Below are positions 35,028 to 61,346 of a DNA stretch of 64,000 nucleotides, in pieces. The DNA lies in contig NZ_CP109444.1 in assembly GCF_036227225.1 (NCBI RefSeq), forward strand, positions 10,087,501-10,151,500, written 5' to 3'. The translations under genes and the position numbers were made by a program. Origin of the DNA: Streptomyces sp. NBC_01478. Lineage in GTDB: Bacteria; Actinomycetota; Actinomycetes; Streptomycetales; Streptomycetaceae. Position 1 is the stretch's first letter. Each line of letters opens with the position of its first letter. The notes below the pieces were generated by a model, which searched no databases, was not told the origin of the DNA, and worked only from the letters and a program-made list of their open reading frames with translations.

Positions 35028-36956
35028 ATGGGGGAATCCCGTAATGATCAGGCATGTCCTGTGTGCGGAGATCCGGCGCGGGGAGACGAGTTCTGCCCAG
35101 TGTGCCGATGGCAGTTGTACGACGACCCGGTCCTGGGGGAGTTGACCGCGCACGACGTCGAGCAGGCGCGATCGGGGCTCGAAGCGGCCGGGCACACCTG
35201 GGACACCGGGGCGGCGCGGCGGTCGGCCCGGACCGGCGGGGCCGTGGGCGAGCGGCTCGCGGCGGTGATGCGAGGTGGTCCGCCCAGACCCGGGGAACGG
35301 ATACCGGACGGCCCCCCTGCTTCTCAGGGAACGCCCTCCGGTCGAATTGCGGGACCGAGGTCCGCGGAACATCCCGAGGGGTACGAAGACATTCTTGACG
35401 ACCTCTTCGGTCACCGCGTCAAGGAATTACTCTTCCTCGAATTCACGCCGGGCGAAGTGAACATGATCAAGGTGACCGTGGGAGAAGGCGGATTACCCCG
35501 ACAGGCCGATGCGGGAAGCGCGAATTGGCGTTCCCTCGCTCCCGCCCTCGACTCGCATCCGGATATCCGTCGTTTCCAAATCGCCGGCGGCATCGGCACT
35601 TTACCCCCGGTCTCCCGCGGTGAATTCGACGCCGCCGTTCTCCACTGGCTCAAGGCGTACGTCCCGCCCTCCTACGAGCACTCCCTCGTGCTGCTGACGC
35701 CCCGTGCCGACTGGGCCCTGCTGGAGCGGGCGGCGGTCGCGGTGCGTGGTGTGTACACCCCGCGGGCCGAACTGGGCCGCGGTGACGCGACGGCCGCGGA
35801 GGGCACGACCGAGGAAGCCGTCACGGAGGTCCTGCGCACCGCCCCGCTGCTCGCCGACCACACCCTGCTTCTGGCCTGTTCCGACCGGGAGACCGGTGCC
35901 GTGCGTACCCGGAACCATGTGCTGTTTCCAGCCGGTCGCCGGCTGCGGCGCGGTGAGACGGCGACCGCTCGCGTCACCGTGCACGGCGGGCCCGGCGTCG
36001 CACAGCCGCTGTACTTACCGGTGTTCGCCGGCACCCCCGCTCCCGACGGGACCGGCGCCCCGACCCTGGCCGTGCACCAGGCTGGCGTCGGCGCGCTCGA
36101 CCACTCCACGCTCACGTTCGTGCTGCGCGGACCCGGCGAGATCGACCTCGTCGACCCCCGCACCGGGACGGCACCGGTACCGGCTCCGCGCGCCGCCGTC
36201 GATGTACCCGCGCTGCTCACCCGCCTGCCCCACCGGATCGTCCGGCCGCCCCGGCTGGAACTCCTTCTCACGGTCGAACTCAGCGGCGCGGACCCGGCGG
36301 AGACCGGGGAACGCCTCGCCTTCGCCCGGGAGTTGGTCGCCGCGCTCGCCGCTCACGGCCCGACCGGAGCGACCCTGCGGGTCGGCGCGGTCGGCCACTA
36401 CGACCATGTGATCCAGGAGAACAGCTACACCACGCGGCCCCGGCTGCTCGAACCCCCGGTCCCGCCGGGTCCGGCGTCCGTCCTGACGGCGGCCCTCGCC
36501 ACCTGGGGTCACACCCTGCGCGCGCAGGACCTGGCGTCCTCGCTGGAGGACGCGCTCCATGCTGTGCTGCCGCTCGCGAGCTCGCCGAACGGCACCGCGG
36601 GGAACGTACGGCGTGTCCTGCTGATCGTGGCCCGCAGGCCGCCCGGGCGGCCCCAGCAGCACGACCTCGTCCCGACCTGCCCGCGCGGCCGCGACTGGGA
36701 GCCGGCGCTGCGTCAGTTGCGGGCCGTCGGAGTCCGGGTGATGACGAGGGCCGACCCCGTGACCGGACCCGATCCTTCGAGCCGACCGGACGCCGCTGCC
36801 CGGCGCTACGCCGACCGGGCGTGGGCCGCGCTGTCCGCCGACGGCTCGTTCCGCCCGGGCACCGACTCGGCCGCCGACGTCGCCAGGGCCCTCGCCCCGT
36901 CCTGGGATCTGGACGGACCGCCCTGCCCGCTGGCCTTCGCCACCCCCCTGCTCTGA
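35028..36956 (+). CDS. Zinc-ribbon protein, first gene of conflict-like operon
   Basis: The 642-residue protein begins with a zinc ribbon: CPVC at residues 10-13 and CPVC at 23-26. A linker (to about 110) and a large domain of mixed alpha/beta character follow (about 115-640). No family is recognised with confidence. The middle (about 370-560) has a VWA-like rhythm (LELLLTVELSG, VRRVLLIVARR) without a clear MIDAS. The gene has four in-frame TTA leucine codons (residues 134, 156, 192, 330), so its translation should need the bldA tRNA, and codon use between 35370 and 35620 is less GC-biased than in its neighbours. The next gene starts 27 nt later; the following genes all overlap. It may deliver target recognition or scaffold the GTPase. 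Confidence 0.75.
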   Translation: MGESRNDQACPVCGDPARGDEFCPVCRWQLYDDPVLGELTAHDVEQARSGLEAAGHTWDTGAARRSARTGGAVGERLAAVMRGGPPRPGERIPDGPPASQGTPSGRIAGPRSAEHPEGYEDILDDLFGHRVKELLFLEFTPGEVNMIKVTVGEGGLPRQADAGSANWRSLAPALDSHPDIRRFQIAGGIGTLPPVSRGEFDAAVLHWLKAYVPPSYEHSLVLLTPRADWALLERAAVAVRGVYTPRAELGRGDATAAEGTTEEAVTEVLRTAPLLADHTLLLACSDRETGAVRTRNHVLFPAGRRLRRGETATARVTVHGGPGVAQPLYLPVFAGTPAPDGTGAPTLAVHQAGVGALDHSTLTFVLRGPGEIDLVDPRTGTAPVPAPRAAVDVPALLTRLPHRIVRPPRLELLLTVELSGADPAETGERLAFARELVAALAAHGPTGATLRVGAVGHYDHVIQENSYTTRPRLLEPPVPPGPASVLTAALATWGHTLRAQDLASSLEDALHAVLPLASSPNGTAGNVRRVLLIVARRPPGRPQQHDLVPTCPRGRDWEPALRQLRAVGVRVMTRADPVTGPDPSSRPDAAARRYADRAWAALSADGSFRPGTDSAADVARALAPSWDLDGPPCPLAFATPLL

Positions 36957-36983
36957 ACCACCGCCGCGCTCCGAGGAGAACGC

Positions 36984-38210
36984 ATGTCCGCTGATTTCTA
37001 CGACCCCAACAAGAACACGCCGGGCGGCACTCCGGCGGGCGGTCCGCCGAACGGTCCGGCCACCCCGGTGCCGCCCGTCCCCGGGCAGTCGGGCGGCCCC
37101 GACCCGGCCGCCGGACCGGAGCCCGCGGCCCGGCGGTGGTCCCCGACCGTGGTTGGACCGTTCCAGGCGCCTCCCGTCCAGCCGCCCCCGCTGCCGTCCG
37201 GACCCCCGGTCCAGGACGAGAGCCTCGCCCCCCTGCGCATCCCCACCGCTCCCCAGGGCGAGGACGCGGCGCCGGACCGGATGCGCATCGGCTTGTGGGG
37301 CGCGCCGAGGTCGGGCAAGACGACCTATCTGGCCGCGCTGCCCATCGCCGCCCTGCAGTTCCAGCGGCACGGGCGGGGCAACTGGGTGATGAGCGGCATG
37401 ACGCCCGACGCCGGCAGGTTCCTGAGCGACAGCGTGCACTCCCTGGCCAGCGAGCGCGTCTTCCCGCAGGCCACGACGGACCTCAACACGATGAGCTGGG
37501 CGTTCCAGGGCGAGGAGCCCGGATCGGGACTGATGCGCCGCTCCCGTGAACCCAGCTTCGTCCTGGAGACCCTGGACGCACCGGGGGAGTCCTACCAGCC
37601 GGGCCACCCCTACCACGAACGGGTCCTCGACCAACTCACCAAGTCCCAGGGGCTGATCTACCTCTTCGACCCGCTCGGCGACGCCGAGAAGGACAACGAG
37701 AGCCTGAAGTTCTTCTACTCGACCCTGAGTGAACTGAGCACCCGGGTACGGGACAGCGGCGGACAGCACCGGGGCAGACTGCCGCACCATGTGTCGGTCT
37801 GCGTCGCCAAGTTCGACCACCCGGACGTGTTCCGGCCCTCCGTGGAAGCCGGCTGGGTCACCCAGGACTCCGTCGGCTCGCAACTGCCCCGGGTCCCCGC
37901 CGAACAGAGCCAGGGCTACTTCCAGTGGCTGTGCGACGAGTTCCGCGGCGCCACGGCACGACTCGTGCGCGACGGACTCGCGAACTTCTTCCACCCCGAC
38001 CGCATCAGCTACTACGCGACGTCCGCGATCGGGTTCCGGCTGAACCCGCAGCACATCTTCGACTACCGCAACTACGCCAACGTCGACACCCTCGGCGGAC
38101 AGCCCCGGATCTGCACCTCGCCCGTGCCGATCAACGTCCTGGAGCCACTGACCGACATGGAACGCAGGATCCGTACCGACCGCGGCGGACGCCGGGGGAG
38201 GCGACGGTGA
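36984..38210 (+). CDS. TRAFAC-like GTPase of the operon
   Basis: The 408-residue protein has a Pro/Gly-rich N-terminal tail (1 to about 90) and then a P-loop GTPase domain. Walker A/G1 is GAPRSGKT (residues 106-113), G3 is DAPGE from Asp198, and a G4-like VAKFDHPD lies near residue 275. The sequence is closest in feel to the TRAFAC-clade GTPases found next to large GTPase-associated proteins in actinobacterial conflict systems. It probably acts as a nucleotide switch in the cytoplasm. It begins with a GGAG site 27 nt after the previous stop, and its stop overlaps the next gene's GTG by four nt. Confidence 0.8.
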   Translation: MSADFYDPNKNTPGGTPAGGPPNGPATPVPPVPGQSGGPDPAAGPEPAARRWSPTVVGPFQAPPVQPPPLPSGPPVQDESLAPLRIPTAPQGEDAAPDRMRIGLWGAPRSGKTTYLAALPIAALQFQRHGRGNWVMSGMTPDAGRFLSDSVHSLASERVFPQATTDLNTMSWAFQGEEPGSGLMRRSREPSFVLETLDAPGESYQPGHPYHERVLDQLTKSQGLIYLFDPLGDAEKDNESLKFFYSTLSELSTRVRDSGGQHRGRLPHHVSVCVAKFDHPDVFRPSVEAGWVTQDSVGSQLPRVPAEQSQGYFQWLCDEFRGATARLVRDGLANFFHPDRISYYATSAIGFRLNPQHIFDYRNYANVDTLGGQPRICTSPVPINVLEPLTDMERRIRTDRGGRRGRRR

Positions 38211-40774
38211 GCGACGCGTCCGGCGCCGTACGGCTCGACGCCCACTGGTCGGTCCTCGGCAAGCACGCGGGACGGCACATGGGATACCAGGTGCTGGACG
38301 GAAGCCTGCCCAAGTCCCGGGCCGAGCAGTACCTCTGGGCCGCCGCCGCCACCGGCGTCCCCGACAAACGCAACCCCGCCGACGGTCTGCCCTGGCGGGT
38401 GTTCCTGGGGGCCGTGCACAACGACGGCAGCCCCGTCTGTGCCGCCGTCCGCACCACCTGGGACGGCAGCACGGACGGCACCGGCGCCCCCAGCTACGCC
38501 TGGCGGCTCCTGCTGCTGGACTGGGCGCGGGCCGGTGCCGCCGGACTGACCTGGTCGGCGCTCGACCATGCGGAGGCCGACGCGCAACCGCCCGAGGGCG
38601 CCCCCGTCTCGCTCACGATCCGTCCGACGCAGGCCCTCGAACTCGCCACCACGGTCGACCGGTTGGGCTTCGAGTGGGCCGCCCGGGTCGCCGCGCTGCT
38701 GCTCGACCGGCAGCGCGTGGCCCTCACCGCGTCGGCCGGTGCCGCGCTCCCCGACGGCGCGGAACGCGTGCTCATCCTCGACGCCGTCTGTTCCCTCCTG
38801 CCGTACGGCTGCCGCTCCTGGCTCAGCGCGGCGACCTGGTCCGGCGGTGGTGAGCACGACATCACGCTCGCCTTCGCGTCCGCGGCCCGCACCGGACAGG
38901 CCGAGGTGTGGCTGGGGGCGGGCAGCCCGCCCGAACCACGCGGTGAGGTGGCCCGCACCTATCTCGGCGAACTGCTGAGACTGAGCGCCAAACAGCGGTC
39001 GACCACCGAACTGGTCGAGCATCTGCTGCGCGCCACGGTGCCGCTGTCGGCGCACGACTCCCGGGAGGCGCTGCGGATCCTGCGCGAGATCGACCTCCTC
39101 GACTCGGTCGTCGCGGACCTCCGCCAAGGACGCGGCGAACTCGCCGAAGTACAAAGGGTGTTGGAGCTGTACCCGGTGCAGGGGCTGAGCGAGGAGGCGC
39201 TCCGGCTGATCCTGTCCTTCCTGGCCGGGCACGCGTCCCGCGCCCGCGGCGGCACCGCCGAGACACTCCTGCACCAGTACTGGAGTCCCCTGACGCCGAG
39301 GCTGCTGGCCGAGGCCGTCCTGCTGGCCGGCGCGACCCAGGGGTCCTTCCAGCAGGCGGAGGACTTCCTGAGTCTGATGGACACGGTGGAGACCCGGGCT
39401 CCGGGCGCGTTCGACGCCCTGTTCACCTCCCTGGTGGAGGGGACACGGGATCACGGCTGGACCGGAAACCTGGTCTACATGGCGGAGCAGCGGTTCGGCC
39501 GTTGGTCGGAATCGGCCGACGCCCTGCTCCTGCGTTCCCGTGAGGCCGGACGCGCCTGGCTGCGCATGTTCCTCAGGGACAGCACCCGCGACCCGGCCCG
39601 GCTGCGCCGACTGGTGACGCGGGCAGTGGGGGAGCCCGGTTCGGGGGCGGCCGGATGGCTGCGGTTCGCCGCGGTCCTCGTCGGCGGCGGTCCCCTCGAA
39701 CAGGCCACACCCGCGGACGCCGCCGAGTTCCTCGAAGCAGCCGACGGCGCCTGGAGGACCGTGCTGGACATGGCCGCCACCGAGCGCACGCCGGAGGTCG
39801 TCGCCCTGATCTGGCCCACGCTGCGACTCGTCTCCCGCGACCGGGAGGGCCGGTCGACGCTGCTGTCCGGACTCGACCGGCTCGCCCCGGCCGGAGGCGT
39901 CGGCCTCGAACCGCACCTCGCCGCGGACGTCGACCTGCTGTACGCCGTGATCGCCGACGAGGCCGGCGGAGGCCGCGCCCCCGTGTCCCTGCCGAGCCTG
40001 CGCCGGACCTCGGACCCCGCCACCCGGGAGGCCTACGCCGCAGCGCTGATCGGACGCGTCGAACCGGACGACCGGCTGGCCGCGCTCGCGGTCGAGGCGC
40101 TCCTCGGCGAGGCACCGGACCAGAGTTCATGGCAGGTGCTCGGCCGGCTCAGGGCGGAGCGGGCCAGCGCGACCTCCTATGTGTGCAACTCCCTCGACCG
40201 ACGGCTCACGGACGATCACCGCCGATGGCTCGAACTCGACCTGCCCGCCGACCTGGTGACGGAGCTGAGCCACCGCCCGCACCTCGGCTGGCTCCGTGCC
40301 GTGTGCGACTTCCGCGGGGCCGCACGGAAGGAGGCACCGGGCTACGAGGAGATGGGCCGGGCCATCGTCGGCGGTTCCGTGGGCGGCAGGTTCTCCCCGC
40401 AACTGCTGGACGAGATCACGGACTACATGCTGGCGTCCACGTCGATGGACGCGTACTGCCTCAGGAAGGCCGTGCGCGAGGCACCGGACGGTCTGCGCCG
40501 CGACCTGTACGCGGCCATCTCCCAGACCGAGGGAGGCACGATGCTCCGCACGGGCCTGGCCAACTTCAGCCACGACGAGATGATCAGCCATCAGGAGGCC
40601 GTGGCCGCACTGGGCTACCCCTATGCGAATCCGGTGCCCGCACAGCCCCCCGCCCTGGCCCGCGACATGTCGGCTCCGCCGCCGCGGCCCCCCGGCCCAC
40701 CGCATCACCGGCAGGCGGGCTTCTGGCAGCGGCTCCGCCCGCGCCGCCCCATCTGGTGGAACGGCTGGCGATGA
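38207..40774 (+). CDS. GTPase-associated protein 1-like large protein
   Basis: The 855-residue protein starts at a GTG overlapping the GTPase stop (GTGA) with GGGGGAGG upstream. Its N-terminal 150 residues (DAHWSVLGKHAGRHMGYQVL, then LLLLDWARAGAAGLTWSAL) resemble the domain I know from proteins called GTPase-associated protein 1-related in Streptomyces. The remainder (about 200-780) is almost all helical, like an ARM/HEAT scaffold. The C-terminal 45 residues are Pro/His-rich. There is no P-loop, signal or membrane span. It is probably the partner that couples the GTPase to the rest of the complex. Identification of the family is from memory and unchecked. Confidence 0.72.
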   Translation: MSDASGAVRLDAHWSVLGKHAGRHMGYQVLDGSLPKSRAEQYLWAAAATGVPDKRNPADGLPWRVFLGAVHNDGSPVCAAVRTTWDGSTDGTGAPSYAWRLLLLDWARAGAAGLTWSALDHAEADAQPPEGAPVSLTIRPTQALELATTVDRLGFEWAARVAALLLDRQRVALTASAGAALPDGAERVLILDAVCSLLPYGCRSWLSAATWSGGGEHDITLAFASAARTGQAEVWLGAGSPPEPRGEVARTYLGELLRLSAKQRSTTELVEHLLRATVPLSAHDSREALRILREIDLLDSVVADLRQGRGELAEVQRVLELYPVQGLSEEALRLILSFLAGHASRARGGTAETLLHQYWSPLTPRLLAEAVLLAGATQGSFQQAEDFLSLMDTVETRAPGAFDALFTSLVEGTRDHGWTGNLVYMAEQRFGRWSESADALLLRSREAGRAWLRMFLRDSTRDPARLRRLVTRAVGEPGSGAAGWLRFAAVLVGGGPLEQATPADAAEFLEAADGAWRTVLDMAATERTPEVVALIWPTLRLVSRDREGRSTLLSGLDRLAPAGGVGLEPHLAADVDLLYAVIADEAGGGRAPVSLPSLRRTSDPATREAYAAALIGRVEPDDRLAALAVEALLGEAPDQSSWQVLGRLRAERASATSYVCNSLDRRLTDDHRRWLELDLPADLVTELSHRPHLGWLRAVCDFRGAARKEAPGYEEMGRAIVGGSVGGRFSPQLLDEITDYMLASTSMDAYCLRKAVREAPDGLRRDLYAAISQTEGGTMLRTGLANFSHDEMISHQEAVAALGYPYANPVPAQPPALARDMSAPPPRPPGPPHHRQAGFWQRLRPRRPIWWNGWR

Positions 40775-42096
40775 CGACCATGACCCCGACCGCCATCGCC
40801 GTCGACCCCGGCGCCCGCCACACCCGCATCGCCCACCTCGCCGCGGACGGCACCCCGACCCTGGCAGACCTGCCCGGCACGGTGCCGGGCGAGGGACTGC
40901 CCACCGCCGCCGGCGCGGGCGGCCATCACGGCGCCGCGCTCCGGTCGGCGTACACCGTCTACCGCGAGCGCTACGGCACGCCCGAGCAGGTGGTCGTGGT
41001 CGTCCCGCAGCACGACCGCGCCGAACACGCCCGCCGGGCCACGGACGTCCTGACCGCCCTGCACGGCACCGACCCGCTGCCCCGGCTGCGCGCACTGGGC
41101 ACCCCGCACGCCGTCCTGGCGCTGCTGCGGCACGCAGGAACGGCGACCGGCACCCGGTACACGGTGTGCGACCTGGGAGCCACCGCCGCCGAGGTGTCCG
41201 GGTGCGCCCTGGCCCCGGGCACCGTGGCCGTGACCGGTTCCGCACGGCACGCGCCCGCGGACGGTTTCGGCGCCGGACTCGACCGGGCGCTGCTCACCGC
41301 CGTAGGGCTGCCGGACGACGAGGACGGGTGGGTGGCGCTCGCGGCGGCCCGGGCCGAGGACGGGGCCGCCCGGCGGCTCGACCTCGCCCTCGAACAGAGC
41401 GCACGGCATCCCGGGCGCTACGACGGGATCATGGTCCACCGGGTGGGCGGCCGGGACCTTGGGGTGGGCGCCGTACGGCAGGCGCTGGAACGGCTCACCA
41501 CCGGACTGGACTCCGTCCTCGACACACGGCCCGGGACACCGGTCGTCACCGTCGGCGGAGGAGCCCGATTCGCGCCGCTCGTACGGCATGTGACGAACCG
41601 TCAGGGAACGCCGGTCGAGCTTCCGGAGGGGACGGACCCCGCGCTCGCCGCCGCGTTCGGCGCGGCGCTGGTCGCCGCGGGGCGGATCGATCCCGCCGAC
41701 CGGTATCCGTACGCCGTGCTCGTGGACACGCACCGGACGGCCGGCGGCGCGCCCCGGGCGGAGGAACTGCTGATCTGCCCGGCCGGGGCGCTGGAGCCGG
41801 GCGGCGCGACCGTCTTCGCGCAGAGCGAGGGGCGGCCCGTCCGGATCAGGACCAGGCCGGTCGGCGCGTCCGCCGTCCGACCCGTCCACGTGCACGTCCG
41901 CGCCGCGCGGGACGGGCGGCCGGTCCCGGTCGGCACCCTGAGGATCCCCGCCGCGGAGGGGGCGCGCTTCCACGTCGGCGTCCGCCTCGCCGTGGACGGT
42001 GAGGCCCTCCTCGTACTGCACCCACTGGGTTCCGGAACCCCCTGGGAATACCCGCTCGGCGCCCTGCCGACCGACATCGAGGGAGCTCGATCGTGA
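40771..42096 (+). CDS. Short Hsp70-like actin-fold ATPase
   Basis: The 441-residue protein has the three nucleotide-binding signatures of the Hsp70/actin fold: phosphate-1 AIAVDPGARHTRIA (residues 6-20), phosphate-2 YTVCDLGATAAEVSG (about 130) and the adenosine motif VVTVGGGARFAPLV (about 260). After the ATPase core (to about 300) only about 130 residues remain, forming a beta-rich piece instead of the full DnaK peptide-binding and lid domains (DnaK is about 640 long). It therefore belongs to the divergent Hsp70-like group, perhaps a regulatory chaperone of this complex. The start ATG overlaps the previous stop by four nt. Confidence 0.82.
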   Translation: MTTMTPTAIAVDPGARHTRIAHLAADGTPTLADLPGTVPGEGLPTAAGAGGHHGAALRSAYTVYRERYGTPEQVVVVVPQHDRAEHARRATDVLTALHGTDPLPRLRALGTPHAVLALLRHAGTATGTRYTVCDLGATAAEVSGCALAPGTVAVTGSARHAPADGFGAGLDRALLTAVGLPDDEDGWVALAAARAEDGAARRLDLALEQSARHPGRYDGIMVHRVGGRDLGVGAVRQALERLTTGLDSVLDTRPGTPVVTVGGGARFAPLVRHVTNRQGTPVELPEGTDPALAAAFGAALVAAGRIDPADRYPYAVLVDTHRTAGGAPRAEELLICPAGALEPGGATVFAQSEGRPVRIRTRPVGASAVRPVHVHVRAARDGRPVPVGTLRIPAAEGARFHVGVRLAVDGEALLVLHPLGSGTPWEYPLGALPTDIEGARS

Positions 42097-43694
42097 TGTC
42101 ATCCGCCAGAGGGCCGTCCCACGCGCCCCAGCGGCCCGCCGCCGCACGCACCCGGTGGTTCGCCGCCCGCGCCGCAGCCGCGGCCGTCGCACTCATCGCC
42201 CTCGTGCCGTTCACCGCGCCCGCGGCGAGCGCCGACACAGGACCCTCCCGCGCCCGGATCTACCAGGATCTCGGCTTGAACGACCAGCCGGCCGACTACG
42301 TCGTGCTGGTGGACACCTCCGGGTCGATGGCGAACGACGGCAAGTACGACACCGTCCGCTCCACCCTGCGCCCGTTCCTGGACGGCCTGTCCGCCAAGGA
42401 CCATGTCGCGCTGTTCACCTTCGACTCCCGCCCCGAGCCGCGCTACATCGGCTCGGCCGGCGACACCGACGCGATCATGTCCAAACTGCCCGAGTCCCCC
42501 GACCCCGAGGGAGAGACGGACATCGGGGCGGCCCTGAACAGCGCGCTCGGCGAACTCGAGCGGTCCGACGCCGCCGAGATCGCCTCCGTCGTGCTGCTCA
42601 CCGACGGGGTGCACCATCCGCCCGCGGGCTCCGCCTACCCCAAGTCCACCGGCCTCGCCTGGACCGCCCTGCACCGACGGGCCCAGGCCGTCGCCGACCA
42701 CACCGAACTCGCGGGCTACGCCCTGCCGTTGGGCAGCGGCGCGACCGGAGCCGACCTCCTCGGGGACGTCGTCGACCACACCACCGTGCTGCGCCCGGAC
42801 AGCATCCAGGACCTGAGCGGCTACCTGGAACGGGCCGGTGACGGCACCCGGGCCCGCAAGGCGCGGCTCCTGCTGGCGGACGACATCGGCAAGGGCATCA
42901 CCGCCACCTGGTCCCCGAGCGGCCGCCAGGACCTCACCGAAGGTTCGGTCGCCGCGACCGTCACACTCCGCTCGACGACCCGTCATGTCCCGCTGACCGT
43001 ACGCGACTTGAGCGTGTCGGTGGCAGGCCAGCCGCTGCGGGTCACCGGAGTGCCGACCACGGTGACCCTGGAACCGGGCCACTCCAGGTCCCTTCCGGTA
43101 CGACTGCGCGGCGCGCTGTCCGCCGGTCCGGTGCCGTACCGCCGCACCAAGGACGTGGACGCCCCGCTGAGGGTGTCCGGCCAGGTCACCTCGGACTGGC
43201 AGCGGGCCCTGGCACCGGACGTCCATCTGAAGGTGCCGGGTGAGGTCCGGGTCACCGGAGCCGCACTGCCGCTGCGGGCCACCGTGGGTTCCGCGGTGCT
43301 GCTGCCCGCCGTCGGCGCCGCCCTCGTGGCCCTGCTGCTGATCCTCTGGCTGGCCTGGCGGCGCACCCACCGCCCCCGGCTGCGGGGCGAATTGCTGCTG
43401 GAGTCGGTGTTCGGAGGGCAACTGCCCGACCGGATCGCCCTGTCCGGGCGCCGGGTCGCGCTGCACCCGCGGATCATCGGCGGCCAGGGATCGGTGCGCG
43501 GACGACGCCGGGCGACCGAACACGGCCCGCAGGTGGACCTGCTCATCCGCTACACACCGGACGGCAGTACGAACCGGCAGAGCGGGGCGACCTGCGTACC
43601 CGGCCGCCAAGTCGTCGTCAACGGCGTGTCCTTCACCTATCTGCCCGAACAGCGGGCGGGCAGCCCCGTTCCCGCCGACGGACGGCCGCGGTGA
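42093..43694 (+). CDS. Membrane-anchored VWA domain protein
   Basis: The 533-residue protein has a signal peptide (to about 47, APAASAD) and a VWA domain (about 67-250). The domain has an intact MIDAS: DTSGS at about residue 73, a threonine in GETDIGAAL and an aspartate in VVLLTDGVHH. A beta-rich stalk follows, then one membrane helix near residues 405-428 (VLLPAVGAALVALLLILWLAW) and a cytoplasmic basic beta-domain of about 100 residues. The VWA domain thus faces outside and the tail inside, where it could meet the other proteins. GTG 42093 and ATG 42096 are both possible starts; the GTG is better spaced from GGGAG and overlaps the previous stop. Confidence 0.85.
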   Translation: MMSSARGPSHAPQRPAAARTRWFAARAAAAAVALIALVPFTAPAASADTGPSRARIYQDLGLNDQPADYVVLVDTSGSMANDGKYDTVRSTLRPFLDGLSAKDHVALFTFDSRPEPRYIGSAGDTDAIMSKLPESPDPEGETDIGAALNSALGELERSDAAEIASVVLLTDGVHHPPAGSAYPKSTGLAWTALHRRAQAVADHTELAGYALPLGSGATGADLLGDVVDHTTVLRPDSIQDLSGYLERAGDGTRARKARLLLADDIGKGITATWSPSGRQDLTEGSVAATVTLRSTTRHVPLTVRDLSVSVAGQPLRVTGVPTTVTLEPGHSRSLPVRLRGALSAGPVPYRRTKDVDAPLRVSGQVTSDWQRALAPDVHLKVPGEVRVTGAALPLRATVGSAVLLPAVGAALVALLLILWLAWRRTHRPRLRGELLLESVFGGQLPDRIALSGRRVALHPRIIGGQGSVRGRRRATEHGPQVDLLIRYTPDGSTNRQSGATCVPGRQVVVNGVSFTYLPEQRAGSPVPADGRPR

Positions 43695-44344
43695 ACGGCC
43701 CGCCGCTCAACATCGCGGCCTCCCACGTCGGTACCCGGGCTCTCGGGCCCGGTGTGCGGTCCGTTGTGTGGGTGCAGGGCTGTCCGTTCCACTGCGCCGG
43801 CTGCGTCTCCCCGGGCTGGATCCCCGACCGCCCCGCCCGCCAGGTCCAACCCGCCGAGCTGGCCGCCGAGTTGCTCGCCGACCCTCGGGTGAGCGGCCTC
43901 ACCCTCTCCGGCGGGGAGCCGATGGGGCAGGCCGCCGGACTCGCCGAACTGGTCCGCGCCGCCCGCGAGATCAGGGACGTCTCCATCATCTGCTTCACCG
44001 GACACCGCCTGGAACGGCTGCGCACCAGGCCCCCGGGGCCAGGGGTGCCAGCCCTGCTCGCCGCGGTCGACGTCCTCATCGACGGCCTGTACGTGGCCGC
44101 GCTGAACGACGGCCGCGGCCTGCGCGGCAGCTCCAACCAGCGTGTCCACCACCTCACTTCACGACTGGCGGACCGCGGCCACGACTTCGATCACGGCCCC
44201 CGCACTGCCGAGATCGCCGTCAGCGGACCGGAGGCCCTGCTCATCGGGGTGCCGCCGAACGGCCTGCTGAACGCGTTCGACACGGCGGTCGACGCCGTCC
44301 GCGCCCGTACGTCCCCAGGAAGGGAACACCACCATGAGCGGTAG
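43691..44344 (+). CDS. Radical-SAM activase-like 4Fe-4S protein
   Basis: The 217-residue protein has the radical-SAM cluster motif C-x3-C-x2-C in VQGCPFHCAGCVSPG (residues about 35-49) and the SAM-binding GGEPM near residue 77. Its size and the QGCPFHCAGC context are those of NrdG/PFL-activase-like minimal enzymes that make glycyl radicals. No glycyl-radical enzyme is encoded here, so its target may be another protein of the operon or a small molecule. A GTG start overlaps the VWA stop by four nt, and its end overlaps the next gene by 11 nt. No extra cluster domain is present. Confidence 0.85.
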   Translation: MNGPPLNIAASHVGTRALGPGVRSVVWVQGCPFHCAGCVSPGWIPDRPARQVQPAELAAELLADPRVSGLTLSGGEPMGQAAGLAELVRAAREIRDVSIICFTGHRLERLRTRPPGPGVPALLAAVDVLIDGLYVAALNDGRGLRGSSNQRVHHLTSRLADRGHDFDHGPRTAEIAVSGPEALLIGVPPNGLLNAFDTAVDAVRARTSPGREHHHER

Positions 44345-45731
44345 GAAGCGCATCCAGGTCGACGAGTCGGAGTGGTACCGCATCCAGCGCAAGGCGCAGC
44401 AGCTCAAAGAGGTGCAGCGCAACCTCCCCCGGCTCATCGACGACGTCCGCGCACAGACCCGGGCGGACATCGACCGGACCTTCGCCGGGGTGCAGGAGCG
44501 GCAGCGCCGGCACGAGGAGGCGGTCCGCGCACTCAGCGACCAGACCCGGCAGTTGGAGGCCGACACCACGCGCAGGCTTCAGCAGCAGACGGCGGAGCTG
44601 CACCGGACCCTCGACGAGACCGCGGGCCGCATCCAGGCGGACACCCGACGGGAACTGGCCCGCCAGCAGGAGGAGACCCGGCAGGCGATCGCCGGCGAGC
44701 GGGCGGAACGGCGTGCCGAGATGGCCGTGCTGGCCCAGGAGATCAACGTCATGAAGGCGGACCGGGCGCACGCCGAGAAGATGGTGCGGGCCTGGCTCGG
44801 GGACGCCAGGACGATGGCCGGCCTGATCGCCGACACGCTGCCGCACGAGCGGTACGCGCCCGGCGAACTGGCCCGGCTCACCGGGCGGTTCGCCACCGCC
44901 GAGAACAACATCGTGCAAGGGCAATTCGAGGCCGCGCTCGCCGTCGTCCAGGAGACCTTCCACTCACTGAGCGACCTGCGGGTCGACGTCACCCAGCGCG
45001 AACTGGAGCGCTGTTCCGCCCAGGCCGAGGCGGTCGAGGCCCTGGTCCGGGTGGAGAAACTGATCGTGGGCAACGAGGAACGGTCCGTCATCGGACCCGA
45101 CGGCGAGGCTCTGCCCGGCTACCGGCTGGACGTCGTGTACTGGTCGGACGGCGAACTGGACACACTGCGCCAGGAGACCGCCCAGGCCCTGACCCGGGCC
45201 CGCGACGACGGGACGGACACCGACGCCCTGCACGGTCTGCGCGACCAGGAGGCGACCCGGCTCGAACAGGATCTCGGCGACACCGTGGAACGGGCGGGCA
45301 TGCGCCACCTGTCCTCGCAGATCCGGGTCAACCTGGCCGACGCGGTGGCCCAGACCCTCAGCGCGCACGCCTACTACGACCTGGTGGACGGCGAGTACGA
45401 GAACGACGAACGGGGTTCCTACTTCGCGAAGCTCCGCAACGAGGCGAACGGCAACGAGATCGTGGTGGACGTCTCGCAGGCCGACCGGGACTCGGACCAG
45501 TGCGTCATCAGGGTGCTCTCCTACGACCACGACACCACGGCCGAGGCCGACCTGATGGACCGCGCCCGGATGATCCAGCAGGCACTGGTGGAGGACGGCC
45601 TGCGGGCCTCGGCGCCGGAGACCGAGCCCGGCGTGCCCGACCCCGCCCACCGCCCGACCCTGCCCGAGGGCGGCCCCGGGTCCGCTCCGTTGCCCACCGA
45701 GCAGCGCCGGCGGGAGACGGAAGCAGAGTGA
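44334..45731 (+). CDS. Coiled-coil protein of the operon
   Basis: The 465-residue protein is predicted almost entirely helical up to about residue 330. A long coiled coil occupies about residues 15-165 (many Glu/Arg/Gln heptads such as RRLQQQTAELHRTL). A helical bundle follows, and a mixed alpha/beta domain lies at about 340-425 (SYFAKLRNEANGNEIVVDVS). The last 45 residues are disordered and Pro/Glu-rich. No known family was recognised. It could act as a filament or scaffold linking the VWA protein and the AAA+ ATPase. The start lies inside the end of the radical-SAM gene and its stop overlaps the AAA+ gene as GTGA. Confidence 0.72.
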   Translation: MSGRKRIQVDESEWYRIQRKAQQLKEVQRNLPRLIDDVRAQTRADIDRTFAGVQERQRRHEEAVRALSDQTRQLEADTTRRLQQQTAELHRTLDETAGRIQADTRRELARQQEETRQAIAGERAERRAEMAVLAQEINVMKADRAHAEKMVRAWLGDARTMAGLIADTLPHERYAPGELARLTGRFATAENNIVQGQFEAALAVVQETFHSLSDLRVDVTQRELERCSAQAEAVEALVRVEKLIVGNEERSVIGPDGEALPGYRLDVVYWSDGELDTLRQETAQALTRARDDGTDTDALHGLRDQEATRLEQDLGDTVERAGMRHLSSQIRVNLADAVAQTLSAHAYYDLVDGEYENDERGSYFAKLRNEANGNEIVVDVSQADRDSDQCVIRVLSYDHDTTAEADLMDRARMIQQALVEDGLRASAPETEPGVPDPAHRPTLPEGGPGSAPLPTEQRRRETEAE

Positions 45732-48343
45732 CCGCATCACCGGCCGGCCCGCCGTCCACGCCGGGGCCGTCGACGGAGCGGCTGGATCCGGCCGCCCTGC
45801 GCGGCGGCGAACCCTTCACCGTCGTCTACGGCCCGGGTGTGGGCGACCAGTTCGTCGACCACGCCTACCAGGTGTGCGTCTTCGAGGAGGCGCTGTGGCG
45901 GCTGCTGCGGGCCGAGGGTTTCGAGCGGATCGTCTTCAGCTCGCTGGACCATCCGGTCTACTTCCGTGACCAGGCCTCCCGCGACCTCTCCCGGCGCAGG
46001 GCCGTCCCGGCCGCCCGGACCTGCCCCGCGGAGCCGCGCGCCATGCGGCACGCGCAGCTCAAGGGCCCGCTCGGCGGACTGCTGGTGCGGGACTTCGCCC
46101 CGCGCGCCGCCGCAGCGCCGGACGACACCGGCGGGGCGGCGCCGGGACGTCCTCCGGCACCGTCGACCGGTACCTCCGACGTGTTCGGTGTCACGACCCT
46201 GACCGGCTATCTCCACCAGACCGCGCACCGAACCGCCGTGGTGTTCTCGCACGCTGAGGAGACCCTGCAACACATCAGGGCGCCACGGCAGTTGGCGGGC
46301 GCCATGGAGCGGTGGGCGCATGATCCCAACGCGCGCAACCTGTGGGTCCTCGTCTTCCGCAGGACCGGTCTGGACGAGGTGGAGGAGTTTCTGCGCAGAC
46401 GCGGGGACTTCCCGCACCTGGAGACCTTCGTGAATGCCCAGAGTGCCGCGCCGGGAGGCGGCGCCACCTTCCGGATCGGGCACCCTCAGGCCGCCGAACT
46501 GGAACGGCTCGTCCACCATGTACGGCTGCGCCAGGGGCTGCGCATCGCCGACTGGCGGGAGTTCGACCCCATCGTCAGGGCCATGGCCGGGCAGCCCGTC
46601 AAGGCGCGCACCTGGCACACCCGGCTCGGTCAACTGGCGGCGAGGAACGGCTCGTTGGGGCGGGACTCGGTACGCCAGTGGCTCGGCGCGGTGAGCGACG
46701 ACGTGCGCACACCCTGGGAGAGACTGGAGGCCATGCCCGGCCTCGACTCGCTCAAGCGGCACTTCGAGCAACTGCGGGCCGAGGCGGAGGCCGCCGAGGA
46801 ACTGCTGGCCGCGGGGCGGGTCACCGCCGCGGAACCGCCCGCCCTGCACCTGGTGTTCACCGGCAACCCGGGCACGGGCAAGACCACGGTGGCGCGGCTC
46901 GTCGCCGAGATGTACCGCGACCTGGGACTGCTCGACCGCGGTCATGTCGTCGAGGCGCAGATGAGCGACCTCGTCGGCGGATACGTGGGCCAGACCGCGC
47001 CGTTGACCAACCGGACGATCGACCGGGCCCTGGACGGTGTGCTGTTCATCGACGAGGCCTATGGACTCAGCGACCAGCGGGGCGGGTTCGGCGGCGAGGC
47101 CATCCAGACCCTGCTCAAGCGGATGGAGGACGACCGGGGCCGACTGGTCGTGATCGTCGCCGGATACCCGGAGAAGATGAAGGAGTTCCTCAAGTCCAAC
47201 GAGGGCCTGGCGAGCCGGTTCCCGCAGGACAACATCCTCGACTTCCCCGACTACGCCCCCGACGTCCTGCACGCGATCCTCCAACTCCGCCTGGCCGAAC
47301 GGGGGGTAAGGCCGACCGAGAAGGCGGTCGGGCAACTGGAGGCGATCGTCGGGGAGTTGTACCGCACCAGGGGCGCGGACTTCGCCAACGCCCGCGACAT
47401 GCGCACCCTCGGTGACGCCATCGTCAAGCGCTGGTCCGGCCGCAACCGCCGCAACATCGCCGAACCGGTCGGCCCCGAGGACATCCCCGAGGCCTACCGC
47501 GCCTATCTGCCCCGGCCCGCGCCCGACCCTGCCGACCTGCTCGCCGAACTCGACGACTACGTCGGACTGGGGCCGGTCCGCGAGGTCCTGGAGAACCTGG
47601 CCAACCGGCTGCGGATGCGGCAGGCTCGCAACAAGGGCACACCCGCTCCGCCGCATCTGCTGTTCACCGGGCCACCCGGCACCGGCAAGACCACGGTGGC
47701 ACGGCTGATCGGGAGGCTGTTCCACGAACTCGGCCTGCTGCGCAAGGGACATGTCGTCGAGGTGACCCGCAGCGATCTGGTCGCCGGGTTCGTGGGACAG
47801 ACCGGGCCGCTGGTGCGCGACGCCGTGCAGAAGGCGCTGGACGGCGTCCTCTTCATCGACGAGGCCTACAGCCTGGTCCGGGACACCGGTGGACACGGCG
47901 GGTTCGGTGCCGAGGCCATCGACACACTGATCCGTGAGATGGAGCATCTGCGCGGCCGCCTCGTGGTCGTCGCCGCGGGCTATCCCCAGGACATGGACGC
48001 CCTGCTGGACTTCAACCCGGGCATGCGGTCACGCTTCACACAGCGGGTGCCGTTCCCGGAGTACGGGTCGCGGGACCTGGTGGAGATCCTGCGCCGGATG
48101 GCCGCCGCCGAGGACTGCACCCTGGGCGAGGGCGTCCCCGAACGGGCCGCGCGCTGGCTGCGGGAGACCAGAAACGCCGATCCGACCGCCTTCGGCAACG
48201 CCCGCACGGTACGCGGCCTGCTGGAGACGATGGAAGGGCGCATGGCAGCCCGATTCGCCCTGGGCCCCACCGAATCCGTCTACCTGCCACAGGACGTACC
48301 GGACCCACCCGACCCACCGGGTGCACCGGTCCGGCGCCGGTAG
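45728..48343 (+). CDS. Tandem CbbX/SpoVK-type AAA+ ATPase
   Basis: The 871-residue protein has an N-terminal domain of its own (about 1-330) and then two consecutive AAA+ modules. The first has Walker A GNPGTGKT (residues 379-386) and Walker B LFIDEAYG (Asp442-Glu443). The second has GPPGTGKT (648-655) and LFIDEAYS (Asp711-Glu712). Both show the GYVGQT/GFVGQT pore-loop-like stretch and the FANARD/FGNART arginine-bearing sensor region of CbbX and SpoVK proteins. CbbX remodels Rubisco by pulling on its C-terminus, so a remodelase that acts on a partner protein is the likely role. A strong terminator follows. Confidence 0.9.
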   Translation: MTASPAGPPSTPGPSTERLDPAALRGGEPFTVVYGPGVGDQFVDHAYQVCVFEEALWRLLRAEGFERIVFSSLDHPVYFRDQASRDLSRRRAVPAARTCPAEPRAMRHAQLKGPLGGLLVRDFAPRAAAAPDDTGGAAPGRPPAPSTGTSDVFGVTTLTGYLHQTAHRTAVVFSHAEETLQHIRAPRQLAGAMERWAHDPNARNLWVLVFRRTGLDEVEEFLRRRGDFPHLETFVNAQSAAPGGGATFRIGHPQAAELERLVHHVRLRQGLRIADWREFDPIVRAMAGQPVKARTWHTRLGQLAARNGSLGRDSVRQWLGAVSDDVRTPWERLEAMPGLDSLKRHFEQLRAEAEAAEELLAAGRVTAAEPPALHLVFTGNPGTGKTTVARLVAEMYRDLGLLDRGHVVEAQMSDLVGGYVGQTAPLTNRTIDRALDGVLFIDEAYGLSDQRGGFGGEAIQTLLKRMEDDRGRLVVIVAGYPEKMKEFLKSNEGLASRFPQDNILDFPDYAPDVLHAILQLRLAERGVRPTEKAVGQLEAIVGELYRTRGADFANARDMRTLGDAIVKRWSGRNRRNIAEPVGPEDIPEAYRAYLPRPAPDPADLLAELDDYVGLGPVREVLENLANRLRMRQARNKGTPAPPHLLFTGPPGTGKTTVARLIGRLFHELGLLRKGHVVEVTRSDLVAGFVGQTGPLVRDAVQKALDGVLFIDEAYSLVRDTGGHGGFGAEAIDTLIREMEHLRGRLVVVAAGYPQDMDALLDFNPGMRSRFTQRVPFPEYGSRDLVEILRRMAAAEDCTLGEGVPERAARWLRETRNADPTAFGNARTVRGLLETMEGRMAARFALGPTESVYLPQDVPDPPDPPGAPVRRR

Positions 48344-48431: not shown

Positions 48432-49403
48432 TCACGGGCTCGTACGGCCCACCATCGCGCGTCCGTCCGTGTTCCGTTCGGCGCGCTGGTCGAGTACCCG
48501 GCCCAGTGCCTCGTCCGCCTCGCGCAGCCGTCGCTCGATGGACTCGGTGGTGGCCGCCACCTCCGCCAGCGTGGCCGTCTCCGCGGCCGGGGAGGCAGGT
48601 GTGCCGGCGGGCCCGGCGGCTTCGCGCAGTGCGCGGGCCAGCTCACGATCGGCCTGCGCGTGTCGGGTCAGGGAGGCCAACTGGCCGCCGCGTTCCGTAC
48701 GGATGCGCTCCAACCGGTCGTGACAGGCGGCGAGTTCCGCCGAACTCGCCCGGTACTCGCGCTCGGCGGCGGCCAGCGCGCTCTGTGCCGTCGCGGCCCG
48801 CTCCAGCGTCTGCCGGGTCTGCGGTGCCAGGACCGCCAACTGGTCCTCGGTGAGACGGACCAGCGCGTCACTGCTGGTCCGCAGGGCCTCGTCGACCCCG
48901 GCGTCCCGGCCGCGCAGCTCCACCAGCCGCTCCTGGATGACCTGTTGCTGGTTCCGCAGCCCGTCCAGCGCGACCACCAGCCGCTCCAGGCGCCGCAGTT
49001 CGTCCACCTGCCGGCGCAGCTCCTCGTGCTCGGCGAGCCGGGCCCGCAGGGCCTCCTCGGCGGCCGTCAGCTTCTCCAGCGTCTCGCGCTCGGCCCGTAC
49101 CCTGTCGGCGGTCTCCGTCAGTCGCCGGGCCAACTCCGTTGTGCGGTCGGCGTTCTGCTCCCCGGGCCGGGCCGCCGCCAGCAGGCCGGGCAACGCGTCC
49201 GCCAGCTCACGACCTTCCTCCAGCGCCAGGTCCAGGGCGAAGAAGACCGCGAGGGCGTCCTGGCCCCTGGCCCCGCCGTCCAGCCCGCGCAACGCGGCGG
49301 TGGCCCAGCGGAACGCATGGCCCAGCACCTGCGGCGCGGCCGTCGGATCGGCCGCGTCGGAGCCGGCCAGCGCCTCCGCGAGCTCTCGTCTGCTGTCCTC
49401 CAC
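48432..49403 (-). CDS. Coiled-coil protein near trypsin-co-occurring gene
   Basis: The 323-residue protein is predicted all-helical with a long coiled coil from about residue 85 to 300, rich in Glu, Leu, Arg and Ala (heptads such as LEKLTAAEEALRARLAEHEE). No enzymatic motif, signal or membrane segment is seen. The GTG start at 49403 is preceded by GGGGGGA; a GTG or ATG 45 nt upstream is possible. It is convergent with the AAA+ gene and divergent from the small trypsin-associated gene, so it may form part of the neighbouring cluster as a filament-forming or sensor component. Confidence 0.7.
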   Translation of the reverse strand: MEDSRRELAEALAGSDAADPTAAPQVLGHAFRWATAALRGLDGGARGQDALAVFFALDLALEEGRELADALPGLLAAARPGEQNADRTTELARRLTETADRVRAERETLEKLTAAEEALRARLAEHEELRRQVDELRRLERLVVALDGLRNQQQVIQERLVELRGRDAGVDEALRTSSDALVRLTEDQLAVLAPQTRQTLERAATAQSALAAAEREYRASSAELAACHDRLERIRTERGGQLASLTRHAQADRELARALREAAGPAGTPASPAAETATLAEVAATTESIERRLREADEALGRVLDQRAERNTDGRAMVGRTSP

Positions 49404-49520
49404 GCTTCCCCCCGTCGTTGTTCCGGCCGATGTCCGCGTATCGCCCAAACCCCCACACGACCGGTACGGGCACCACTATCCTTCACGCACAACGTCCGGC
49501 GGTGACAGTTCGGGGGATTC

Positions 49521-49850
49521 ATGGCCGAGTTGGTGCGTTTCCACGGCCCTGACGGGGCGTCACTCATCGTGGAGGTGGAGGACGACGACACGGGGCTGGA
49601 GCTGATCTCCCGGGACCCCACCGGTGTCGTACAGGCCGGCCGGCGGCTGGAGGACGCGTTGGCCGCGGTGCGCCCGGCCCTCCGGTCGGTCGTCGACTCC
49701 GTGCGGACGCTCGCGCCCGACGAGTACGAGGTCGAGTTCGGGATGAAGCTCAACGCCGAGTCCGGCGTGGTGATCGCCAAGTCATCCATAGAAGGGCACT
49801 TCAACGTCAAGATCCGCTGGTGCCGCGCCGACCGGGACCCGGCGGAGTGA
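49521..49850 (+). CDS. Trypsin-co-occurring small protein (CU044_2847/trypco1-like)
   Basis: The 109-residue protein matches in length and pattern the small family usually annotated as CU044_2847 or trypsin-co-occurring domain 1. Features are an N-terminal beta segment (VRFHGPDGASLIVEVEDD), a central helix and a closing strand pair in VEFGMKLNAESGVVIAKSSIEGHFNVKIRW. The family is named for standing next to trypsin-like protease genes, and here the next gene, four nt downstream, encodes exactly that fused to a P-loop and TPR array. It probably serves as an effector-associated or adaptor module in the same predicted conflict system. GGGGGA precedes the ATG. Confidence 0.75.
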   Translation: MAELVRFHGPDGASLIVEVEDDDTGLELISRDPTGVVQAGRRLEDALAAVRPALRSVVDSVRTLAPDEYEVEFGMKLNAESGVVIAKSSIEGHFNVKIRWCRADRDPAE

Positions 49851-54241: not shown

Positions 54242-55027
54242 TCAGGGCCTGACCAGCAACTGGAAGTCGAACGCGTAGCGCGACGCCCGGTAGATGTGCG
54301 TCCCGTACTCGACCGCCCGCCCCGTGTCGTCGTACGCCGTGCGCTGCATCGTGAGCAGTGCCGCGCTCTCCTTCTCGTCGAGGCGGGCCGCCTCCTCGGG
54401 GGTGGCGGAGCGGGCGCCTATCGTCTGGCGGGCGCTGTGCAGGGTGATGCCGGCGGTGCGCAGCATCCGGTACAGGCCCGTCGACTCCAGCTTGGCGGTG
54501 TCGAGGGGGAGCAGGTTCGCCGGGAGGTAGTTGCAGAGGAACGCCACCGGCTGGCCGTGCGTGGAGCGCAGCCGTTCCAGGAGCGTCACCTCGCTGCCCT
54601 CCGGGACGCCGAGGGCGGCCGCGACATCCGCGGTCGCGGGCACGCCCTCGTTGCGCAGCACCAGCGTGGTCGGGCCCTGCCCGGCCGACTCCAGGTCGTC
54701 GTAGAGGCTGCTGAGTTCCAGCGGTCGCTTGACCTGGCTGTGCACCACCTGCGTGCCGACCCCCCGCCGCCGGACCAACAGCCCCTTGTCGACCAGGGAT
54801 TGGATGGCCTGGCGGACGGTGGGGCGGGACAGACCCAGGCGGACCGACAGGTCGATCTCGTTGCCCAGGAGGTTGCCCGGGGCGAGGGTCCCGTGCTCGA
54901 TCGCCGACTCCAACTGCTGCGCGAGCTGGTAGTACAGCGGCACCGGACTGTTGCGGTCCAGGGCGAAATGCAGGGCATCGAGCGGGGACCCGGCCACGGC
55001 GCGCGAGTAGCCACCGGTCTTCGCCAC
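54242..55027 (-). CDS. GntR/HutC family regulator of the inositol operon
   Basis: The 261-residue regulator has an N-terminal winged helix (about 27-95) with VPLYYQLAQQLESAIEHG and LSRPTVRQAIQSLVDKGLL. A UTRA-type effector-binding domain follows (about 110-255; LLERLRSTHGQPVAFL). HutC-type regulators bind sugar or sugar-phosphate ligands. It is the last gene of the iolC-to-iolA run, 32 nt after mmsA, so it is probably autoregulated with the operon and acts on the inverted repeat at 61341-61404. Its end lies 25 nt from the convergent TPR gene. Confidence 0.88.
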   Translation of the reverse strand: MAKTGGYSRAVAGSPLDALHFALDRNSPVPLYYQLAQQLESAIEHGTLAPGNLLGNEIDLSVRLGLSRPTVRQAIQSLVDKGLLVRRRGVGTQVVHSQVKRPLELSSLYDDLESAGQGPTTLVLRNEGVPATADVAAALGVPEGSEVTLLERLRSTHGQPVAFLCNYLPANLLPLDTAKLESTGLYRMLRTAGITLHSARQTIGARSATPEEAARLDEKESAALLTMQRTAYDDTGRAVEYGTHIYRASRYAFDFQLLVRP

Positions 55028-55059
55028 AGGGGCACCTCCTCACGGATCGTGACGGACTG

Positions 55060-56553
<1,494 letters not shown>

Positions 56554-56582
56554 GGTGCGAGTGCCTTTCGGGGGAGGGGAGT

Positions 56583-59356: not shown

Positions 59357-59370
59357 CGTGTGCCTCCGGT

Positions 59371-60249: not shown

Positions 60250-60288
60250 GAGAAGCTCCGTTCAGGAAAGACTCGGGCGGTCACGGGG

Positions 60289-61257: not shown

Positions 61258-61316
61258 GCGCGACACTCCTCTGAGCTGCTGGGGGTGGGCGGGTCCCAGG
61301 GGCCTGCCGCCTCCCA

Positions 61317-61346
61317 GGTGTAGGTCTCGGAGGGGCTCCCTGTCAA
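61317..61346 (-). promoter_or_regulatory. Candidate promoter of iolC operon
   Basis: On the minus strand TTGACA (61346-61341) and TACACC (61322-61317) are separated by 18 nt, 60 nt before the iolC start. The -35 hexamer lies within the left arm of the inverted repeat at 61341-61404, so a repressor there would block the polymerase. Confidence 0.55.

Follow-up and report, generated by a model that had tools for sequence, protein, structure and literature searches.

A conserved actinomycete gene set with a divergent GTPase, Hsp70-like, radical SAM and tandem AAA+ proteins as a candidate class of DO-GTPase/GAP1 conflict systems

In the genome of Streptomyces sp. NBC_01478, eight + strand genes (g1–g8) at positions 35028-48343 of the analysed window, a stretch of 64,000 nucleotides at 10.09-10.15 Mb of a single 12.12-Mb contig, encode a GTPase with a putative partner, Hsp70-like, VWA, radical SAM, coiled-coil-like and tandem AAA+ proteins (Table 1). 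This gene set is a real, coherent and conserved unit with a patchy distribution, and x9 is its ninth core gene. The nine-gene constant core and an exchangeable protease gene seem, on balance, to represent an undescribed class of the DO-GTPase/GAP1 conflict systems predicted by Kaur et al. (2020; PMC7159879), as these are set out in the relevant sections of that paper. We favour this reading because of the gene order, the GTPase and GAP1-M signals and the protease exchange. The chaperone/radical SAM module is most likely new to such predicted systems.

Table 1. Genes of the cluster in the window
Gene	Coordinates	Strand	Product and features
g1	35028..36956	+	642 aa; N-terminal CxxC..CxxC zinc-ribbon-like part, middle region, C-terminal VWA fold
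g2	36984..38210	+	408 aa; GTPase motifs GAPRSGKT, DAPGE, AKFD; predicted divergent DO-GTPase
g3	38207..40774	+	855 aa; alpha/beta N-terminal part (1-240), helical superhelix (247-802)
g4	40771..42096	+	441 aa; shortened Hsp70-like ATPase: nucleotide-binding part and short C-terminal region
g5	42093..43694	+	533 aa; hydrophobic 22-40, VWA with DTSGS, hydrophobic ~396-414, C-terminal tail
g6	43691..44344	+	217 aa; short radical SAM protein, NrdG/PFL-activase-like
g7	44334..45731	+	465 aa; coiled-coil-like, conserved C-terminal region
g8	45728..48343	+	871 aa; N-terminal ~335 aa and two SpoVK/CbbX-type AAA+ domains
x9	48432..49448	-	coiled-coil-like; start TTG at 49448; 323 aa from 49403
Trypco1 (trypsin-co-occurring domain 1)	49521..49850	+	109 aa; PF19493 E 9.2e-26; effector slot
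Trypsin-P-loop-TPR protein	49855..54216	+	1453 aa; candidate effector/sensor

Organisation and conservation of the gene set

Each of the eight frames was open from its start in Table 1, and the coordinates agreed with the operon-like run with six consecutive overlaps of 4–11 nucleotides that an earlier note, made from the sequence of the window, had described. Neighbouring genes shared 4 nucleotides at g2/g3 (38207-38210), g3/g4 (40771-40774), g4/g5 (42093-42096), g5/g6 (43691-43694) and g7/g8 (45728-45731) and 11 nucleotides at g6/g7 (44334-44344). The g1 and g2 genes were separated by a 27-nucleotide gap, without overlap.

Related loci were collected by scanning GTDB species genomes with the g3 alignment, which gave 82 matching stretches and, from these, 59 loci. 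Eight protein profiles were searched in the 59 loci and the best + strand match was taken for each gene. All genes from g1 to g8 were found in order in 18 of the 22 Streptomyces/Kitasatospora loci, counting L011 with g8 cut by the contig end, L024 with a short g5 and L026 with another gene inserted between g6 and g7. The gene set stopped after g3, at the contig end, in L015, L017 and L023, and L019 was without g4–g7. In this last locus, g3 directly abutted a shortened g8 with a 4-nucleotide overlap, which may be a natural deletion or an assembly artefact. A block-swapped order, g6-g7-g8-g1-g2-g3, was observed in 12 of the 37 loci from other actinomycetes (Actinomadura, Nonomuraea, Frankia, Sphaerisporangium and others). 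The remaining ones contained g1-g2-g3 only (15 loci), g2-g3 (6), g2-g3-g5 (2) or g3 alone (2), some of these partial loci being cut by contig ends; in at least three of the 15 (L032, L045 and L064), the contig began inside g1.

A start giving the 4-nucleotide overlap at g2/g3 was present in 22/22 Streptomyces/Kitasatospora loci. The same overlap was counted at g3/g4 in 17/18, at g4/g5 in 13/18, at g5/g6 in 16/18 (1 nucleotide in 2 more) and at g7/g8 in 17/18 loci, whereas g6/g7 overlapped by 11 nucleotides in 8/18 and by 4 nucleotides in 6/18; these counts are favoured, as the script chose the 4-nucleotide start wherever it was available. Being kept across 22 loci, the overlaps are not due to chance. 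A promoter scan of the locus with the sigma-70 consensus, a poor guide in GC-rich DNA, detected no promoter-like site, and terminators were no more frequent than expected by chance.

The unit appears to be larger than first reported and to extend to about 54216, so that the borders of 35028-48343 in the earlier note were too narrow and missed both x9 and the 3' effector slot. When the genes of all 60 loci were called with a simple caller and clustered, x9 was found in 31 loci. It is convergent with g8 in the window and stands in line after g4 in Actinomadura-type loci. A Streptomyces-type x9 profile gave 13 matches in other loci and none to shuffled or reversed sequences up to E 10; the E-values of these matches (9.7e-21 to 6.8e-62) stand after bias terms of 36-66 bits, which are large, as for coiled coils. 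Half of the loci (30/60) contained g1-g4, g7 and g8. In these, x9 was present in 29, g6 in 28, g5 in 19 and a DUF4407-cluster gene in 10; the two cluster members that were scanned matched PF14362 at E 1.7e-76 and 2e-68.

The idea that these genes are chance neighbours with no common function draws on their unusual domain mix and nothing more, and can be given hardly any credence. It is refuted by gene order and co-occurrence: order and overlaps were kept across divergent loci, blocks were swapped yet intact in other families, and x9 switched strand but remained. Homologues occurring singly and never together, which the earlier note had named as fatal to its proposal, were not the pattern found, as the genes co-occurred across loci.

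Since the loci had been collected by g3, a g7-anchored search of the genus was also made. It detected g7 in 5 of 121 Streptomyces genomes, this genome included, and in this genome only among 296 genomes drawn across the phylum; because 13 and 5 candidates per genome, respectively, were scored, both counts are lower bounds. Among the four other g7-positive genomes, three with enough contig carried g1–g8 and the fourth, a 5.5-kb contig, g5–g8. L089 and L090 from this search proved identical to L021 and L020 of the g3 set, which leaves L088, also carrying x9, Trypco1 and the trypsin protein, as the only new full example. The g7-anchored test is less independent of the g3 set than first judged. 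The g7 relatives P0162-P0178 formed a 43-45% identical group, with named members mostly from Streptomyces.

The GTPase g2 and its partner g3

The g2 product is a divergent double-GTPase (DO-GTPase), as far as its sequence allows it to be placed. In the window it scored 18.2 bits against PF19993, below the cut-off of 27, and DO-GTPase2, which topped the member matches, weakly matched 27 of the 28 aligned g2 sequences, counting the window protein, at E<=1, with a best value of 4.2e-5. DO-GTPase1 was matched by 25/28, and these two families led, with many other P-loop families after them. Searched against a small set of open reading frames, the g2 profile also recovered the canonical DO-GTPase encoded elsewhere in this genome (E 2.4e-9). 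Patterns for the P-loop and for [TNA]K[FYIL]D occurred in 54/58 and 58/58 g2 sequences, respectively, while DxxGE was present in the Streptomyces-type members shown and absent from most others.

The adjacent g3 gene probably encodes a divergent GAP1, judging from its weak domain matches and layout. No Pfam match at E 0.01 was obtained from the single sequence. GAP1-M was weakly matched by 14 of the 30 members of the g3 alignment (window included; best E 0.0035), in which the other members are 18-25% identical to the window protein, and 20 other families were matched by one member each. When the whole genome was searched in six frames with GAP1-M, two regions were returned, namely the canonical GAP1 at E 9.4e-27 and g3 at E 0.46. 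The layout of g3 (alpha/beta 8-120, alpha/beta 134-240, helical 247-802) was similar to that of this canonical GAP1 (N2 3-136, M 151-246, C 266-850). Its N-terminal fold was nearest to TagF and more weakly resembled DENN GTPase-exchange modules; no paper joining TagF with DENN or longin was found among the matches listed. Matches of the helical part to FANCI, PPR and the like were read as generic helical-repeat similarity. The same genome carries a canonical GAP1-N2 system at 9.05 Mb (L067, 9046000-9064000), with a PP2C phosphatase, two DO-GTPase2 and a full GAP1-N2/M/C protein.

Exchangeable proteases beside the core

In the window, Trypco1 and the 1453-aa trypsin protein follow x9. The Trypco1 cluster was present in 10 loci and the trypsin-protein cluster in 12, the window included in both counts. 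The 1453-aa protein matched Trypsin_2 (E 2e-14) and TPR_16 (E 2.9e-33), and its catalytic motifs TCAHVV, GDIAVLEL and GFSGAP were identified by pattern, together with the P-loop GRSKAGKS. In 16 Streptomyces-type loci x9 was present and a further gene was called after it. The trypsin cluster was represented in 11 of these, in some of them after Trypco1, the CHAT-protease cluster in four (L016, L020, L021 and L022), neither in one (L013) and both in none. The full-length copy of the L021 gene (L089) is a CHAT protease at E 3.6e-42; a full-length copy of the cluster was found by BLAST for L020, whereas L016 and L022 hold N-terminal parts only. Trypsin and CHAT genes occurred together in 0/23 Streptomyces-type loci, by cluster membership in the available sequence, with six of the 23 ending before or at the effector slot. 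Outside this group, a CHAT protein followed x9 in L034 (E 4.3e-27), and the protein after g5 in L048 was just under the CHAT cut-off (22.4 of 24).

Effector genes thus vary, with trypsin or CHAT on the 3' side and a CHAT/RES cassette on the 5' side in five loci. Upstream of g1 in L013, L016, L020, L021 and L022, a RES-cluster gene was found in 5/5 and a CHAT-cluster gene in 4/5, identified by scanning one Streptomyces member of each cluster; these genes look like a second effector cassette. Four of the five loci had an extra gene there, and the scanned example had a weak, below-cut-off Macro match.

The earlier note had likened the operon to NTP-dependent conflict systems with a TRAFAC GTPase and an associated protein. 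Its overall reading is partly supported: the guess of a GTPase and associated protein agrees with the DO-GTPase2 and GAP1-M matches and with the Trypco1/trypsin or CHAT genes adjoining in Streptomyces-type loci, while its borders left this protease slot outside.

The chaperone, VWA, radical SAM and AAA+ proteins

The VWA-fold domain of g1 (residues ~405-627) is without the DxSxS metal motif. Compared by sequence, the g1 C-terminus and the g5 VWA domain gave a probability of 27%, and the VWA assignment was settled by fold. CxxC pairs were found in g1 of the window, with the pattern in 30/46 g1 proteins, and none in the N-terminus of the window g2. The middle region of g1 matched Hsp70 in Foldseek at E 2e-6, but with a root-mean-square deviation of 10.9-20.1 and TM <=0.23, and hhalign of g1 against g4 was not significant. 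The g4 profile (alignment A5) matched the Hsp70 SSB1 in the PDB at E 4.6e-13, with no Pfam match from its single sequence; judging by its length, g4 is without the lid.

The g5 product is a predicted membrane-anchored VWA protein, with VWA_2 (PF13519) at E 3e-13, the DxSGS motif in 19/21 members and segments assigned by hydropathy. A pattern for further VWA metal residues matched 0/21, window included, and was not relied on. A membrane component, either this VWA protein (19) or the DUF4407-cluster protein (10), in the 30 loci with g1-g4, g7 and g8 would suit a machine for envelope or developmental assembly, in which the GTPase switch, the VWA/Hsp70/AAA+ layer and the protease regulate the turnover of a membrane complex in hyphal growth or stress. 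For PSP envelope-stress operons, PMC11237479 also names a DO-GTPase, and it places AAA+ proteins next to PspA. However, the presence of g7 in just 5/121 genomes of the genus, with 13 candidates scored in each, does not point to general physiology, and interchangeable trypsin/CHAT proteases with a CHAT/RES cassette suit conflict better, which makes such a machine rather unlikely.

For g6, Fer4_12 was matched at E 8e-30, and the CxxxCxxC and GGEP motifs occurred in 29/30 and 30/30 members, respectively. It scored 89.1 bits against TIGR02491, below the cut-off of 126.1; as no NrdD was found among the genes scanned either, its identification as NrdG, the activase of class III ribonucleotide reductase, was rejected. 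A viperin-like radical SAM protein was rejected too, with no PADLOC match. The g7 search returned 98 proteins, g7 among them, with no precomputed Pfam domain assigned to any, and the mean column identity of the alignment (A6) was 53%. In g8, TIGR02881 was matched with 426 bits, above the cut-off of 422.95, the AAA+ domains matched EccA1 and CbbX structures at E 4e-47 to 6e-46, and two Walker A motifs were present in 30/31 members. A strict pattern for two Walker B motifs (21/31) was not relied on, and the N-terminus as an inactive AAA+ domain was not supported. The products named in the earlier note were borne out: the GTPase by motifs, the Hsp70-like ATPase by its PDB profile match, the VWA protein by PF13519, the radical SAM protein by both motifs and the two CbbX-type AAA+ domains by TIGR02881.

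CbbX-type AAA+ proteins remodel enzymes. A maturation pathway centred on radical SAM chemistry, with chaperones and AAA+ proteins delivering the substrate of g6 (a metalloenzyme, a glycyl-radical enzyme or a peptide product), would accord with this activity, with the NrdG/PFL-activase-like nature of g6 and with g6-g7-g8 staying together when the gene order changes. It is nevertheless quite improbable. No glycyl-radical enzyme or transporter was found among the eleven genes scanned, small precursor peptides not being sought, and the GTPase half exists without g6-g8, as 15 loci show g1-g2-g3 without them (with the contig beginning inside g1 in at least three).

Comparison with described systems

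As listed in the relevant sections of PMC7159879, GAP1-N2 systems include Hsp70 and VWA components; tubulin, Hsp70/GrpE and kinase themes are described there as well. The present cluster resembles the GAP1-N2-type DO-GTPase systems described there in a GTPase gene directly followed by a GAP1-like gene, an Hsp70 without the peptide-binding part, VWA and membrane components, variable effectors and occurrence in actinobacteria. Unlike in those accounts, the GAP1-N2 and GAP1-C models miss g3, the zinc ribbon is on g1 and not on the GTPase, no tubulin or kinase was found among the genes scanned, and a radical SAM protein, a tandem CbbX AAA+ protein and two coiled-coil proteins are added.

The FtsH-type MoxR-vWA ternary systems, with which radical SAM is named once in the sections consulted, likewise combine a VWA protein, a two-AAA+ protein and radical SAM. 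In contrast to them, g8 is of SpoVK/CbbX type and retains both Walker A motifs, the core is GTPase/GAP1-like, and no MoxR was found among the genes scanned. Trypco1 beside trypsin is shared with VMAP ternary systems: the same paper lists Trypco1-trypsin for VMAP systems, places Trypco1 beside trypsins in conflict systems and reports trypsin and caspase peptidases as mutually exclusive. The difference is that no MoxR family occurred among the eleven genes scanned, with no VMAP-specific model searched. The AAA+ domains of g8 are like those of CbbX, SpoVK and EccA, but g8 is a tandem protein with an N-terminal region of unassigned fold and has different gene partners.

The main text of PMC7159879 on these systems (sections 27-29) describes no radical SAM/tandem-CbbX theme, although its supplementary lists might hold some of these loci. 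In the literature searched, the DO-GTPase/GAP1 names appeared in three papers and Trypco in two. Of the papers listed when radical SAM was combined with Hsp70, VWA, AAA ATPase, GTPase or CbbX, only PMC7159879 was relevant by title or the beginning of the abstract.

Several results weigh against placing the cluster among the DO-GTPase/GAP1 conflict systems. Below-cut-off matches in the GAP1-M search at E 10 also came from 4 of 14 control genomes, which makes the lone GAP1-M hit of g3 weak by itself. Even at E 10, g3 was not among the six whole-genome places of GAP1-N2, and GAP1-C matched 0/30 g3 members. Compared by hhalign with ten canonical GAP1 sequences, g3 gave no significant match (scores of 23.9 and 24.9 for two g3 alignments vs 16.1-26.3 for the other seven genes); the ten came from 14 GAP1 loci, with L068, L069, L071 and L077 omitted for lack of a start motif. 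No protein labelled as GAP1 by Pfam was reached when distant g3 relatives were used in a profile search. The four CHAT loci form a clade nested among the trypsin loci, and the exchange in Streptomyces, being confined to this one clade, does not represent many independent events. In 11 of the 13 other-family loci with x9, no trypsin- or CHAT-cluster gene followed it; two neighbours scanned there were APH-like (L031) and semialdehyde-dehydrogenase-like (L037).

The same holds for the comparison with known defence genes. PADLOC gave no specific known-defence match for any of the eight core proteins, for x9 or for the trypsin protein; Trypco1 and five genes from other loci likewise had none. The best match was g8 to IetA (E 9e-16), vs 3.7e-128 for g8 to SpoVK, and other matches of window proteins reflected coiled-coil or protease similarity. 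Megablast of the 13.3 kb, with a reach of roughly 85% identity or more, detected no plasmid copy, and a search with the g7 protein alone gave no phage match. In further contrast to the GAP1-N2-type systems as outlined in PMC7159879, FNIII and GrpE were absent among the genes scanned: neither the eight core proteins nor the three 3' genes matched an FNIII family at E 0.01 (a weak fn3_5 match, E 0.0097, was seen in the VWA protein of L033), and Hsp70 was present without GrpE.

A possible mechanism

For a conflict system of the DO-GTPase/GAP1 kind, we infer the following contacts, order of steps and trigger from the observed genes, motifs, gene order, co-occurrence and protease exchange. In the resting cell, g2 would be held by g3, the N-terminal part of which would contact the GTPase, while the helical superhelix would scaffold the complex and possibly act as a sensor. 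The complex may be placed at the membrane by g5, the VWA domain of which would sit on a membrane anchor; the DUF4407 membrane protein may substitute for it in other families. Either the g3 superhelix or the protease, with its TPR/P-loop part, could sense an invader or the damage it causes, upon which g3 would alter the nucleotide state of g2. The layer of VWA, Hsp70 and AAA+ proteins (g1, g4, g5 and g8), with the coiled-coil proteins g7 and x9, would then remodel or assemble the complex, and g6 may modify one component by radical SAM chemistry before or together with this remodelling. As the presumed output, a protease of trypsin or caspase type (CHAT) would be set free and harm the infected cell.

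A more specific proposal, which we put forward only tentatively, is that g3 represents a third GAP1 class with a DENN/TagF-like GTPase-regulating fold which, with its GTPase, gates a trypsin/CHAT death protease as an immune switch resembling a eukaryotic GTPase/exchange-factor pair. It is similarly doubtful, though conceivable, that the gating runs through the VWA-Hsp70-tandem AAA+ layer and a radical SAM modification. That such a third class has spread over Streptomyces, Kitasatospora, Actinomadura, Nonomuraea and Frankia relatives is likewise a speculative suggestion. If true, a whole class and a new chaperone/radical SAM module would be added to the so-far-predicted immune systems of multicellular bacteria, and a cassette would be defined for testing. 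A DENN-like regulator with its own bacterial GTPase would also bear on the origin of eukaryotic GTPase exchange modules.

Neighbouring genes and related loci

Ten loci with g1-g2-g3 and without g6-g8 (L038, L047, L050, L053, L054, L058, L059, L062, L063 and L065) carried a DUF4407-cluster gene and an opposite-strand protein-kinase-cluster gene, one of each being scanned (L047). Two copies of g3 were present in six of them (L038, L047, L050, L053, L058 and L063). In the window, the region downstream of the trypsin protein (54242-63642) was seen by eye to contain genes resembling those for myo-inositol use (a regulator, a dehydrogenase, IolD/B/C-like proteins, a sugar binder and a permease).
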